DNA of 36,802 bases. It comes from a virus. Of this stretch, positions 13,589 through 24,833 are shown piece by piece. The notes below the pieces were generated by a model, which was given only the letters and a program-made list of their open reading frames with translations, made no database searches and was not told the DNA's origin. The DNA is taken from the IMG/VR virus record IMGVR_UViG_3300021959_000159, positions 1 to 36,802 of that record, one strand, 5' to 3'. How positions within the stretch are numbered: the first letter of the stretch is position 1; each line of letters opens with the position of its first letter. A program made the translations under genes and the position numbers.

Positions 13589-13767
13589 CTTTTAGCGAGA
13601 CTCATCATACGCTTTTGGGCTTTCATAATACGCCTTCCTGCTAGCTTAAGCTTAGTCATCTTAACTATAATATTAGCTCTATGAATCTTTCTTTTATCTT
13701 CTCTTAAGGTTCTTCTTTTCATTGTACGCACGTGTCTGCGTCTTTGCTTTTCACTTACTTTTTTCAT
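13585..13767 (-). CDS. 60-residue extremely basic protein between gp55 and gp47
   Basis: About 25 of 60 residues are Lys or Arg, and only three are acidic; it starts MKKVSEKQRRRHVRTMKRRT and is likely one or two helices. Both ends use ATGA overlaps (with gp55 upstream and gp47 downstream), which is strong evidence for a real, coupled gene. The charge suggests binding to DNA, RNA or RNA polymerase. The position beside the late sigma factor invites comparison with T4 transcription accessory proteins such as gp33, but that is a small acidic-hydrophobic protein and no similarity is visible. Function unknown. Confidence 0.75.
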   Translation of the reverse strand: MKKVSEKQRRRHVRTMKRRTLREDKRKIHRANIIVKMTKLKLAGRRIMKAQKRMMSLAKR

Positions 13768-14360
13768 GACATAAACAGCTCAAGTTTTTCTTTCTCTCGC
13801 TTTTTCTCCTCTTTTGCAAATTGTTTAATAGCGTTATCTTTAGTACGAATAGTTCCAATCCTTTGTCTTAATGTATCTACATAAGCCATTGTTTCTTCAG
13901 CACCTTCGTTATCCATACCCATTGCAACAAAATCTTCAATACCCATCTTTTCGATGAACTTAAACTTGATATCTTGTTGTTTCTTTTCTTTGGTAATTCT
14001 GCGAATAAATGCAAAGTAACAAATTTGAGTAAAGTAACTAAATGCGTTTGGCTTTCCAGTCCTTGTAGCAGTTTCAATGTTATAGTTGCTGATTGCTCTT
14101 AAGCAATTTTCAACAGCATCCATAACCATTTCTTCTCTATAAGTATACCGAACAAAGTTCGGTCTGTGAGACAGCCCTTCTGAAATTCTGATAAAACATT
14201 TTGCAATGTAATCCGGAACTGTAGGAACTTTGATTTCTTTTTGTTTACAATCACGTGCTTCAATCGCATATTTCATGACTGCTTCAGAGAAGTCTCTATT
14301 GTTAACGTAATGTGGTTTTTCTTTAGGTTTCACTTTAACCATTGTTTTATTTTTCTCCAT
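13764..14360 (-). CDS. 55: Late-transcription sigma factor gp55
   Basis: Directs host RNA polymerase to TATAAATA late promoters, working with the sliding clamp gp45. It is 198 residues (T4 gp55 is 185). The conserved KPKEKPHYVNNRDFSEA start, the YTYREEMVMDAVENCLRAI segment and the NAFSYFTQICYFAFIRRITKEKKQ segment (sigma region 2-like) are visible. The start is uncertain: the first ATG (14360) lies only 8 bases from the -10 box, whereas the ATG at codon 7 (14342) has GGAG 12 bases upstream. It heads the unit gp55, basic 60-mer, gp47, gp46, tRNA. Confidence 0.93.
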   Translation of the reverse strand: MEKNKTMVKVKPKEKPHYVNNRDFSEAVMKYAIEARDCKQKEIKVPTVPDYIAKCFIRISEGLSHRPNFVRYTYREEMVMDAVENCLRAISNYNIETATRTGKPNAFSYFTQICYFAFIRRITKEKKQQDIKFKFIEKMGIEDFVAMGMDNEGAEETMAYVDTLRQRIGTIRTKDNAIKQFAKEEKKREKEKLELFMS

Positions 14361-14368
14361 AATGTATT

Positions 14369-14397
14369 ATTATATCATAGTTTTAGTTGAATGTAAA
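14369..14397 (-). promoter_or_regulatory. Early sigma70-type promoter of the gp55-47-46 unit
   Basis: TTTACA (14392-14397), 17 bp, TATAAT (14369-14374) on the minus strand with TGA before the -10 box. It is back to back with a plus-strand promoter at 14433-14461. Confidence 0.85.
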
Positions 14398-14432
14398 CGA
14401 TTAATTTATTTTAATTATTTTCACTAAAGTCG

Positions 14433-14461
14433 TTTACATTTGACTGAAAGTATGGTATAAT
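14433..14461 (+). promoter_or_regulatory. Plus-strand early-type promoter, divergent from the gp55 promoter
   Basis: TTTACA (14433-14438), 17 bp, TATAAT (14456-14461) with TGG before the -10 box, identical in layout to the seven minus-strand early promoters. No plus-strand gene lies downstream; transcription starting near 14468 would run antisense into the Sm-like gene and uvsW. Confidence 0.8.
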
Positions 14462-14495
14462 ATATTAACACCCGGAGCGGTAGAGGTATACTTAA

Positions 14496-14885
14496 TTAAT
14501 GTAGTATTCTATCTTTAGCGCTATCTTCGGGCATATCATCAGCATGATCAGTATTCAAAGATCGCTCGTACTCATCAAAGAGTTCTTCATCAGTCTTAGT
14601 CTGCGGCATGCTAATTGGTTGGTCCATCTTAAGAGCAAAGTTAACATATGTATCTTTAATAGATTCTGCTATTGGCACATGTTGAATAATTGCTGTCTTA
14701 AGTACTTTAAATTGTTTACTCTCACTGAATGGAAACCAAGATGAAAATTGAGTACCACCCAATAAACTCGGGTTCAATCTTACTGGTCTCTCTATTATGA
14801 GGTTGTCTTCGTTCGAATGAGCTAGGAGACCGATGATCTCTTCGCCATTCATAAGTTTAAAATGTCTTATATTTAATTGTTCCAT
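14496..14885 (-). CDS. Small Sm-like-type protein downstream of uvsW
   Basis: 129 residues. The first part, RHFKLMNGEEIIGLL followed by LIIERPVRL and then FSSWFPFSESKQFKVLKTAII, resembles the five-stranded Sm/LSM-like small proteins of marine T4-like phages; the C-terminal 35 residues are acidic. An RNA-binding role would follow from that fold, but both fold and role are inferred. A late box TATAAATA (14891-14898) ends 5 bases before the ATG, with no Shine-Dalgarno sequence, so a leaderless late mRNA is possible. It is also the last gene of the uvsY-uvsW unit. Confidence 0.75.
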   Translation of the reverse strand: MEQLNIRHFKLMNGEEIIGLLAHSNEDNLIIERPVRLNPSLLGGTQFSSWFPFSESKQFKVLKTAIIQHVPIAESIKDTYVNFALKMDQPISMPQTKTDEELFDEYERSLNTDHADDMPEDSAKDRILH

Positions 14886-14890
14886 ACTAT

Positions 14891-14898
14891 TATTTATA
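14891..14898 (-). promoter_or_regulatory. Late promoter of the Sm-like gene
   Basis: TATAAATA on the minus strand, ending 5 bases before the ATG at 14885; same geometry as the late box of the gp3-like gene. Confidence 0.55.
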
Positions 14899-16390
14899 TG
14901 TTTATATCGTACATCTTATAGTTAAACTTCTCTTTAGAATATATTTTAATTCTTTCAGCTGCATGCTGTAGAGTATAGTTCTTATTTGTTTTGTGGTGCA
15001 AATCATCTGCAATATCATATATCTTTGTGGGTCTTCCATCTTCACTCTTTCTTAGACCTCGTCCTATCGATTGAAGCACTCTAATTTGCGATTTACTTGG
15101 TGAAGCAAAGATGATATTGTGTAAATTCCTAATGTTAATACCAGTAGAAAAAGTCCCAATACTTGCAACGATAATTGCGTTCTTCTCTTTCTCGGTAATC
15201 TCCCTGACTGATTCTCTTGTGTCGACATCTGTTTCTCCTGATACATAAAAGAGTTTTCTATCTTCCTTTATCTTTGTCTTTAATAATGTATGCAATGGTT
15301 TACCATGTTTATCTACATAATTAAATAATACTAGTGTATTTCCTTCTTGGTCTAAAGCTAGGTTTGATATAAAGTTATTTCGTTGTTCGTATCTTACGAT
15401 AAAATCTAACTCTTCTTGGTATTTCATTTTCGAAACTTGCTTACATAACTCTTCTTGGTACTTCAATATGAGTATGCTTATTTCTAACTGAGCTAAATCG
15501 TTATTATCCATTAACTCTTTTGTAGTAATTACTTTGTATACTGGTCCAAATAATCCTTCTAATACAAGCTGATGAGTTTGACTTCCATCTAATGTTCCAG
15601 TAGTACCAATACGATATTTTGCTTCAGTACATTTCTCTAATATAGATGTAAGAGATTTAGCTTTAAAATTATGTGCTTCATCTCCAATTACCATACCAAA
15701 TCCTGAGTACCAGCTTGCTGGCAACTTATATATTGATTGCCATGTAGATATAATAACTCTTTGAGTTACACCTATTTTTTCTCGGCCTGAATATATTCTA
15801 TGACAGTTTTCTTCATGAGACCATGTATCCTTACCAGAATAGTCTCCAAAATCAGAGTACATTTGCTCTACTAATGATGTCGTAGGTACTATAAGCAAAA
15901 CACTACCATCAAAAACATCAAGGAAATATCTTATTGCCAAATATATGATTAAACTCTTTCCAGAAGCAGTAGGTGATAGTAATAAGGATTTCTCTTTCGA
16001 AAGCGTGTGCGAGAGTCCCTCTAATTGATATCCCCTAGGTGTTATATCAGCTCCATTCACAGAAAGGGCCATTTGTGATAATAGGCCTTCTATGTTAGGC
16101 TCTAGGGATGATTCGAGTGCACCATATTGTGGCGAATCTATCACTTCTAACTTATAATCCCTCACATCACAAAACTCACGCAAATATTTGTGCAATCCTG
16201 TGTATAATGTTTTCTTTCGACTATCAAATAATCTAATTTTACCATCCCACATACGATTACGATATGCTGGCATAAATTTATATCCAGGTACAAAGAATTG
16301 GAAATGTTCAGAGAGTTCCATCTCTATTCCCGCATCAGTTTGTATGTTTAAGAAGACTTCGTTCTTCTTTTGAATAGTAATCGTATCCAT
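14894..16390 (-). CDS. uvsW: DNA/RNA helicase UvsW
   Basis: Superfamily 2 helicase that in T4 unwinds R-loops and branched recombination intermediates, shutting off origin replication in favour of recombination-dependent replication. It is 498 residues, near the T4 length. Motif I is PTASGKS (140-146), motif II is DEAH (237-240), motif III is TGT (264-266), and motif VI is QSIGRGLR (440-447). The small N-terminal domain (residues 1-100) has the conserved MWDGKIRLFD. The ATG shares a base with the uvsY stop (TAATG), so the two are coupled. Confidence 0.96.
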   Translation of the reverse strand: MDTITIQKKNEVFLNIQTDAGIEMELSEHFQFFVPGYKFMPAYRNRMWDGKIRLFDSRKKTLYTGLHKYLREFCDVRDYKLEVIDSPQYGALESSLEPNIEGLLSQMALSVNGADITPRGYQLEGLSHTLSKEKSLLLSPTASGKSLIIYLAIRYFLDVFDGSVLLIVPTTSLVEQMYSDFGDYSGKDTWSHEENCHRIYSGREKIGVTQRVIISTWQSIYKLPASWYSGFGMVIGDEAHNFKAKSLTSILEKCTEAKYRIGTTGTLDGSQTHQLVLEGLFGPVYKVITTKELMDNNDLAQLEISILILKYQEELCKQVSKMKYQEELDFIVRYEQRNNFISNLALDQEGNTLVLFNYVDKHGKPLHTLLKTKIKEDRKLFYVSGETDVDTRESVREITEKEKNAIIVASIGTFSTGINIRNLHNIIFASPSKSQIRVLQSIGRGLRKSEDGRPTKIYDIADDLHHKTNKNYTLQHAAERIKIYSKEKFNYKMYDINI

Positions 16391-16836
16391 TAAATTCCGC
16401 TAGTAAACTTTCTCCACTCAATCATGTTCTTTATATTTTGATGTCTCCACTTGATATTCTCTAATATCTCTTTAAGAGTAGAACAGAGTTCTTCAAGGTA
16501 TTGGATTTTTGCTTGCCATTCTTGTATTAATGGATCTGAGTCATAGTATCTATCCATGTCTCCTTTAAGTACAGTTAAACCACCTAAAGGATCGTAGTCC
16601 CAGCCTCTTGCATCAATATCTTCTTTTGGCATCTTGCCATTGTAATGTAGCCACTTATCTCTAAGTACTACTTTAAAGTCTAACTCAGCTTTTTTCAGTT
16701 TCATTCTATTAACTGAAAGAAGTTCTAAGTATTTGCCATGTAATTTCGCGGAATCTCTACTGGTTTCATCGAGATTAACTTCATCGATAATTCCATCTTT
16801 TTTCCACATTTCTAAGATTTGTTGTAAATTATTCAT
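16390..16836 (-). CDS. uvsY: Recombination mediator UvsY
   Basis: Loads the UvsX recombinase onto single-stranded DNA covered by gp32. It is 148 residues (T4 UvsY is 137). Supporting features are the N-terminal LQQILEMWKKDGIID segment, a helical KYLELLSVNRMKLKKAEL region, and the C-terminal IKWRHQNIKNMIEWRKFTSGI, typical of the family. The ATG at 16836 lies only 6 bases after the -10 box of an early promoter (16843-16871) and lacks an SD sequence, so a leaderless message is likely. It is followed by uvsW with a one-base overlap. Confidence 0.9.
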   Translation of the reverse strand: MNNLQQILEMWKKDGIIDEVNLDETSRDSAKLHGKYLELLSVNRMKLKKAELDFKVVLRDKWLHYNGKMPKEDIDARGWDYDPLGGLTVLKGDMDRYYDSDPLIQEWQAKIQYLEELCSTLKEILENIKWRHQNIKNMIEWRKFTSGI

Positions 16837-16842
16837 ATATCT

Positions 16843-16871
16843 ATTATATCATATTATTGCCGATTTGTAAA
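16843..16871 (-). promoter_or_regulatory. Early sigma70-type promoter of uvsY-uvsW
   Basis: TTTACA (16866-16871), 17 bp, TATAAT (16843-16848) on the minus strand with TGA before the -10 box. The -35 box lies in one arm of a small inverted repeat, AAACGTA/TACGTTT (16869-16886), that reaches the end of the gp3-like gene. Confidence 0.8.
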
Positions 16872-17361: not shown

Positions 17362-17369
17362 TATTTATA
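17362..17369 (-). promoter_or_regulatory. Late promoter of the gp3-like gene
   Basis: TATAAATA on the minus strand, 5 bases before the ATG, just downstream of the gp23 terminator. Confidence 0.65.
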
Positions 17370-23147: not shown

Positions 23148-24833
23148 CTATGAACCTGAGATTTCAGAGAATTCAACCCCTGATCTCGTTGCTACAAAGT
23201 TAAGTGTAATGAAGTTAATAGATCTGTTTGGCTTGATATAGATATCTGCCACAAATTTATTACCATCAATAACTTGACTTGTGTTGTTAGTGTTGTCACA
23301 GATTACTGAAAAATCTGTTAATCCACGTCTTCCTTTGACGTCTCTTAAGAACGGTTCAACTAAATTTCTGAACTGTGCTCTTGTAAATTCGTCGTTAAAT
23401 TCGAATAGTTGCGCTTTAGCTGCTGTGCTAACCGCTTTTTCTAATGCGATAAATAGTCTTCTTACATTAATTCTGTCGAATGCTGAAGGTCTGCTTAATA
23501 AAGTTTTGTCACCAAACAATATTGTACCTTGTCCAGGTAGTGATACTATTGGGTTGACTCTAGATTTATATAAAGTGTCTCTGTCTGCTTTCTTAGGGTT
23601 ATATGCAAGTTTAGTTACTCCAAGTAACTGACCTCTGTTTACGCCTGCTGGTGAGAACCATGCATCTGCTACTGAATCAGTATTAGCACATAATCCTGCG
23701 TGATGTCCTGCAGCGCCTATCCATCTGTATACATCATTATATTTGTCGTATACGTATAGTGCTGTTGAATCGCAAGAAGCGTAAGAAGTTGAAGTTAATC
23801 CATCAGCAAATGCTTTCACATCTGTTGCTGGTGTTGAAGTACCGACTGAATCTTCGATCGGTGGAGATATAAATGCCATACAATCTTTTCTTGCATTTAC
23901 TATAGATATTAAATCTTCTGCTATTGTCTCAGCGCCATTGGCGTCTGGAGTAGCAAATAATAGATTTACATCTACAGTGTCTGCATCTTCTAAAAGATCA
24001 TATCCTGTTGCAATTTCTCCTACTGTCGGAGCGTTATCGTCTGAGCCACCACTAAGTGAGTGCTCGATTGCTGCTGTGTTTACTGTAAAAGTTGTGTTGG
24101 AAGCAATTGTTTCGCCAGCATCAGTTAAACTTGTGTCATGATCTGCCCACCAAATATACTCGGATGTAGAATTAATTACATCTTTGTAGAAATTAGTAGT
24201 ACCATCACTATTCTTAGCATCTGAACCTTGCGATACAAATGCGAATGTTTCTAATACTGTTCCTGGTGTACCTGAAATAGCTCCATCCTCATCAACGACT
24301 GCAACATGCACCTCATCTTTTGCGGCTGTTTTGCCCTGGTCGATCGCATATTGCGAAGTTCCTGGAGCAGCATCAAAATTAGCAGCATAAGTCCAACCAC
24401 TAAAACTAGTGATTCCTTCTGTTACCATTGATACTTTTAAGCTATTACCTAATTCACCTGGATATTTTGCTACCCAATTACCCTTACTTAGACTTCCATC
24501 AGCATAATTATTCACATAGTCATCATTATTCTTTATCAGCTGTCCTGAACCATCTGCAGTCGCGTTGTCGTGACCGGATGCTACTCGAACTACTTTTAGT
24601 GCGTTTCCATACTTTAAGAATGACGCTGCTACTAGAAAGTATTTAGCTGTATTGTTGTCAGGTGAGCCAAATTTCTCAGCAAGTTCATTTTCAGAACTTA
24701 CAGTTAAAACTTCTCCCACTGGACCCCAGTTGAACGAGCCTGCGAATCCACCAATGCTGGTTGATACTGCTGGGACTACATTCGTAGCGTCGATCTCATT
24801 GACCTGAACGCCTGGTGATACTTGAAATGCCAT
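23148..24833 (-). CDS. 18: Tail sheath protein gp18
   Basis: Contractile sheath subunit, 561 residues (T4 gp18 is 659). The N-terminus FQVSPGVQVNEIDATNVVPAVSTSIGGFAG and the C-terminal domain with VNPIVSLPGQGTILFGDKTLL, FDRINVRRLFIALEKAV and RNLVEPFLRDVKGRRGLTDFSVICD are diagnostic. The middle domain (about residues 100-330) is the variable, surface-exposed part. A late box lies 62 bases before the ATG. Confidence 0.97.
   Translation of the reverse strand: MAFQVSPGVQVNEIDATNVVPAVSTSIGGFAGSFNWGPVGEVLTVSSENELAEKFGSPDNNTAKYFLVAASFLKYGNALKVVRVASGHDNATADGSGQLIKNNDDYVNNYADGSLSKGNWVAKYPGELGNSLKVSMVTEGITSFSGWTYAANFDAAPGTSQYAIDQGKTAAKDEVHVAVVDEDGAISGTPGTVLETFAFVSQGSDAKNSDGTTNFYKDVINSTSEYIWWADHDTSLTDAGETIASNTTFTVNTAAIEHSLSGGSDDNAPTVGEIATGYDLLEDADTVDVNLLFATPDANGAETIAEDLISIVNARKDCMAFISPPIEDSVGTSTPATDVKAFADGLTSTSYASCDSTALYVYDKYNDVYRWIGAAGHHAGLCANTDSVADAWFSPAGVNRGQLLGVTKLAYNPKKADRDTLYKSRVNPIVSLPGQGTILFGDKTLLSRPSAFDRINVRRLFIALEKAVSTAAKAQLFEFNDEFTRAQFRNLVEPFLRDVKGRRGLTDFSVICDNTNNTSQVIDGNKFVADIYIKPNRSINFITLNFVATRSGVEFSEISGS

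Follow-up and report, generated by a model that had tools for sequence, protein, structure and literature searches.

An early-type antisense promoter conserved at the Sm-like 3' end beside uvsW in T4-like phages of the Kyanoviridae

A T4-like phage fragment of 36,802 nucleotides (IMG/VR record IMGVR_UViG_3300021959_000159; its whole length is referred to as the window), the main genes of which all lie on the minus strand, carries at the end of its Sm-like gene a plus-strand promoter that, judged by its boxes, is an early promoter of the host sigma70 type without a plus-strand gene. A comparable promoter is kept by nearly all relatives; its most probable role is to drive early transcription, antisense and convergent, into Sm-like and uvsW. 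The proposal as a whole (early antisense RNA into Sm-like/uvsW, repression early in infection, release at the late switch, and a hairpin tuning the start) is tentative and is given a probability of roughly 0.4; we infer transcription, timing and function of the promoter from the sequence arrangement described below.

The antisense promoter (14433-14461, plus strand) possesses canonical boxes, -35 TTTACA (14433-14438) and -10 TATAAT (14456-14461), separated by a 17-bp spacer with TG extension; according to the usual -10 spacing, transcription is predicted to start 5-8 bases past the -10 box (14466-14469), at a site where a GT dinucleotide is common in relatives. It lies on the strand opposite to the Sm-like gene and reads into that gene, i.e. 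in a cis-antisense arrangement of the CfrI kind. Eight positions of the window match the early promoter TTTACA-N14-TGNTATAAT with zero mismatches, seven on the minus strand and only this one on the plus strand, in agreement with the sequence-only reading, which had described the plus-strand copy as unique and equal in quality. Re-scanning also returned the boxes and coordinates reported there, TGn included, for both this promoter and the gp55 early promoter (14369-14397, minus strand; TTTACA-17-TATAAT with TGn). The two promoters indeed stand back to back as an inverted pair; the distance between their -35 hexamers, previously counted as 34 bp, is 35 bp (14398-14432).

Viral contigs were scanned seven times, each time with another gp55 protein, which yielded 358 distinct loci in which Sm-like is located upstream of gp55. 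A plus-strand sigma70-type promoter past the Sm-like stop codon was present in 350 of these (98%), its predicted start positioned at a median of 26 bp from the Sm-like stop codon (interquartile range 22-29). The check for loss of the boxes in close relatives, which the sequence-only reading had named in advance as evidence against it, hence did not refute it. A comparable promoter arose by chance in 96 of 927 dinucleotide-shuffled stretches (approximately 10%), score thresholds of 10 and 9.5 being applied in this comparison. The antisense promoter might be regarded as a by-product of the gp55 promoter, or as chance AT-rich sequence, without function of its own: the promoters are arranged back to back, and in several cyanophages their -35 boxes are nearly adjacent or overlapping. 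Both the excess of conservation over shuffled sequence and the persistence of the promoter away from gp55 disfavor this explanation, which is considered highly improbable. In 60 loci, the Sm-like stop codon is more than 250 bp distant from gp55, and in all 60 the promoter is found at the Sm-like end. According to these comparisons, the antisense promoter is tied to the 3' end of Sm-like and not to gp55; an effect on read-through towards gp55 is therefore not the conserved property, and the emphasis of the sequence-only reading on the pair with the gp55 promoter is not supported.

Extra genes encoding, among others, small unknown proteins and a nucleotidyltransferase-like protein (GFTCSAFDLLHAGH) were observed between Sm-like and gp55 in 60 loci (e.g. 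L339, L353, L523, L564); without exception, they stand between the antisense promoter and gp55. In Syn9 (L257, approximately 23,690-23,730) and ACG-2014b (L583), the divergent promoters share a 16-bp palindrome, TTGACAAGTTTGTCAA; each -35 box thus lies inside the other promoter, and mutual exclusion would be expected. Across the gp55 promoter region of Melnitz-3 (L090:3429-3524, minus strand), a 31-residue hypothetical protein is annotated on the opposite strand that looks spurious.

The promoter was also recognized in the isolates Syn1, Syn9, S-PM2, P-HM1, S-SKS1, ACG-2014b/f, C48C1 and HTVC008M; Melnitz revealed a weaker match only (TTGCTT-17-TATATT). Within the clade of the window, seven contigs of 38-113 kb contained 62 pattern matches in the gp55 sense and six in the opposite direction (one mismatch or fewer allowed); five of these six were the antisense promoter, which in most contigs of the clade is the sole opposite-direction promoter of its type. 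It was not annotated in any isolate record examined, and no published description of the element was found in the papers searched, although the papers on Syn9 expression or on the discovery of CfrI may contain a prior mention. Megablast against the phage collection returned no close DNA relatives of the window.

Downstream of Sm-like in the gene order lies the late sigma factor gp55 (13764-14360, minus strand; phrog_234, E 4e-49); the predicted antisense transcript would run through Sm-like (14496-14885, minus strand; phrog_527/471) and next into the helicase gene uvsW (14894-16390, minus strand; PF21241 UvsW_N, phrog_16), followed by uvsY (16390-16836, minus strand; PF11056) and the early promoter of uvsY-uvsW (16843-16871, minus strand), with which the antisense promoter is convergent. 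The order gp23, gp19, uvsY, uvsW, Sm-like, gp55, gp47 is common to the Kyanoviridae isolates C48C1, HTVC008M, Melnitz, Syn1 and S-PM2, interrupted by some small extra genes. For the Sm-like protein, an Sm barrel was predicted with good confidence (AlphaFold mean pLDDT 86.6). The best Foldseek match and nearest solved structure is 3BY7, which stems from a marine metagenome and has been described as resembling Sm/LSm proteins. At the C-terminus (14499-14501, minus strand), 195 of 205 non-cyanophage sequences carry His, frequently within TIH or ILH, and cyanophages mostly Ser; this pattern suggests a C-terminal peptide motif.

A late-promoter sequence, TATAAATA, is located 13 bases before the Sm-like ATG (14891-14898, minus strand), and within the window's clade, 59 of 66 loci carry a late-like [TAC]ATAAATA ahead of Sm-like. 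In consequence, Sm-like would be a late gene there, and together with the early promoter of uvsY in the window this sets early antisense against late sense transcription; such a placement behind a late gene would be consistent with Sm-like and uvsW being repressed early. In cyanophages and most HTVC-type phages, the search for a late promoter ahead of Sm-like gave none, and the early-versus-late logic is accordingly backed by sequence for the window's clade only. The same TATAAATA occurs 13 bases before the ATG of gp19 (tail tube; 17362-17369, minus strand); at this distance both genes would have almost no leader, and their late messages are possibly leaderless. According to the preferred reading, host RNA polymerase would produce, early in infection, an antisense RNA running into Sm-like and uvsW; its transcription would collide with sense transcripts from the uvsY early promoter, or the RNA would pair to them, and in the window's clade transcripts from the Sm-like late promoter would be met likewise. 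Sm-like and uvsW might thereby be kept low until the polymerase moves to late promoters, whereupon the repression would be lifted; a hairpin near the start may adjust how the start site opens, or the 5' end of the transcript.

The same convergent arrangement could act as a roadblock at which transcripts of uvsY-uvsW-Sm-like stop, so that the gene behind is insulated, an explanation close to the transcription interference considered in the sequence-only reading, yet not specific for gp55. The promoter is indeed locked to the 3' end of the operon whatever comes next, and scanning found no intrinsic terminator at the Sm-like end in the window; a roadblock would not need the start-proximal hairpin, and this explanation appears quite unlikely. 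It should be added that the need for a start-centered hairpin is not obvious in simple antisense interference either.

The plus strand offers neither a gene nor a defined 3' end to the predicted RNA. As stated in the sequence-only reading, no plus-strand gene follows: in the window, the ATG that overlaps the end of Sm-like runs straight into a stop codon (ATG-TAG), cyanophages have no start codon at this site, and family-wide open reading frame lengths equal chance, for which reason a small plus-strand protein, or its 5' untranslated region, was rejected. The Sm-like C-terminal His codon as a disguised plus-strand start was discarded as well (frames not exceeding chance length; Ser at the end in cyanophages). 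The earlier observation that no clear plus-strand terminator occurs in the first 200 bases can be extended: no terminator-like site was detected on the plus strand of the window between 14468 and 18667 (scanned to 20000), and terminators within 400 nt of the start were present in 6 of 73, 10 of 67 and 8 of 82 loci (4.8, 4.2 and 6.0 expected), scattered and without clear enrichment. Since no terminator is kept at a conserved distance from the start, an intrinsically terminated small RNA was not accepted as a candidate. Conservation is confined to approximately the first 45 nt of the predicted RNA; within Sm-like, elevated synonymous constraint is limited to some subgroups and to roughly the last 3-6 codons, and is not sustained. 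Constraint that stops within the last Sm-like codons, with no reading frame kept, is what one would predict if transcription as such, or simple complementarity, is what matters.

Directly after the -10 box, members of four subgroups (HTVC, Melnitz, cyanophage, C48C1) possess a stem of 4-6 bp, and its loop mostly contains TGT, the expected start point (e.g. AGACT-ATGT-AGTCT, GGTCT-ATGT-AGACC, AACGG-TGT-CCGTT, AGGGG-TGTT-CCCCT, ACCC-ATGT-GGGT, AACCT-TGTAG-AGGTT). In the window's subgroup, the hairpin is located about 8 bases further on, within the predicted RNA; it is weak in the window itself (14472-14480, plus strand; CCG-GAG-CGG, 3 bp), with the counterpart stems AACC-GGGA-GGTT, ATCC-GGGG-GGAT, TGGC-AGGG-GCCA and TGTC-GGGG-GACA in relatives. 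Pairing was assessed by a swap test, in which the 3' parts were exchanged among phages and the loss of pairing was scored, after thinning. In the four subgroups, the test gave z values of 3.9, 5.2, 5.6 and 3.0 directly after the -10 box, where the signal was strongest (a few other positions reached z 2-3.5); for the window's subgroup it gave a weaker z of approximately 2.6. Covariation in a fixed register amounted to 0.414 compared with 0.188 ± 0.043 in shuffles, none of 500 reaching 0.414, for sequences hand-picked to span the stem types, so that this count leans towards structure; the neighboring register (+1) scored nearly as high because loop length varies. For the same reason, RNAalifold returned no consensus structure for the window's clade, and the swap test was used instead; the fold of the window region was no better than usual (z -1.9). 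Judged by these comparisons, start-proximal pairing is kept by compensatory change in the four subgroups; support for the hairpin in the window's subgroup is weak. The arms comprise 62 distinct pairs around loops of 3-7 nt; given this variety and the variable half-site spacing, a DNA palindrome serving as dimer operator was rejected.

Little hairpin signal was seen at other promoters of Syn9, HTVC008M and the window. Weaker hairpin signals follow the gp55-side promoter too, with a swap-test z of 3.9 directly after the -10 box in cyanophages and of 4.8 ten bases later in the Melnitz/HTVC-type subgroup; the similar, weaker signal in cyanophages implies that the hairpin is maybe not wholly unique to the antisense promoter. 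That the start-centered hairpin works as a single-stranded element of the non-template DNA or, given an unusual start, as an RNA hairpin at the 5' terminus, and turns the antisense promoter into a family-wide control or an R-loop priming site beside uvsW, is a doubtful proposition. We know of no phage precedent for a promoter-embedded structure of such kind.

The hairpin and the bases behind it bear on two further explanations. A conserved purine-rich patch, AGCGGTAGAGGTATAC, covers 14476-14491 (plus strand), approximately positions +10 to +25 counted from the predicted start; purines make up 70-86% of positions +10 to +20 in all five subgroups compared with approximately 40% further downstream. 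A short structured RNA of approximately 45-60 nt, acting in trans or with the neighboring Sm-like protein while its antisense overlap is incidental, would account for this patch, for the extent of conservation, for the retained pairing and for the constant position of the element beside an Sm-fold protein gene. It would still lack a conserved terminator or other 3' end, and both the fold score of the window and the RNAalifold result argue against it; Rfam covariance models matched nothing but a tRNA in the window (L235 gave a sub-threshold chance match). Moreover, at standard start spacing the 5' arm, i.e. half of the hairpin, lies outside the RNA in the four subgroups. A short RNA is considered unlikely.

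Alternatively, transcription might prime replication from an R-loop, helped by the non-template hairpin and the purine-rich RNA, and UvsW encoded next door would remove the R-loop; T4 has R-loops at its origins which begin at promoters and which UvsW unwinds (PMC3016281). An RNA-DNA hybrid is favored over the duplex at +10 to +20 in all five subgroups, and the non-Watson-Crick exceptions in the stems, read in the plus sense, fit the non-template strand (13 G.T versus 0 A.C), with many of the G.T sharing cyanophage ancestry. On the other hand, no switch in GC skew was detected at the locus, in HTVC008M or in Syn9 (T4-like skew being dominated by the coding strand), the promoter is of the -35/-10 type and not a MotA middle promoter, and no marked A+T-rich unwinding element is present beyond +30 (low GC at +20 to +30 occurs in some subgroups only). 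Such an origin is regarded as improbable. Early antisense transcription into Sm-like and uvsW remains the preferred reading.

Kyanoviridae belong to the most common phages of the sea, yet little is known about their control circuits. One antisense promoter kept in 98% of the sampled loci, sitting at the end of a gene for an RNA-binding protein and pointing into the gene of an R-loop helicase, would be a cheaply testable handle on the timing of UvsW and Sm-like; should the start-site hairpin function in the form of single-stranded DNA, the promoter element would be an unusual one.

Among known systems, T4 anti-late RNA, a bulk class known from hybridization, resembles the proposal in that late genes are transcribed antisense, and differs in that it is not known to be driven by one dedicated promoter carrying a hairpin at its start. 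T4 oriF/oriG are comparable in being promoters, in a phage that encodes UvsY and UvsW, from which the RNA may remain hybridized to the DNA; they depend on MotA middle promoters and an A+T-rich unwinding element, whereas here no MotA promoter, no marked unwinding element beyond +30 and no skew signal were found. The STAXI motif likewise is a short structure suspected to act as single-stranded DNA near DNA-handling genes (PMC2864571), but consists of tandem pseudoknots, occurs in other hosts and is not start-centered. Strand counts for P-HM2 infection exist (PMC5082946). CfrI of cyanophage S-PM2 is, like the RNA proposed here, an antisense RNA of a Kyanoviridae phage directed against late-infection genes; it is located at psbA and a homing endonuclease, has been seen as an RNA of approximately 225 nt and is not family-wide, whereas the present promoter, known from its sequence, is placed at Sm-like/uvsW in nearly all relatives.
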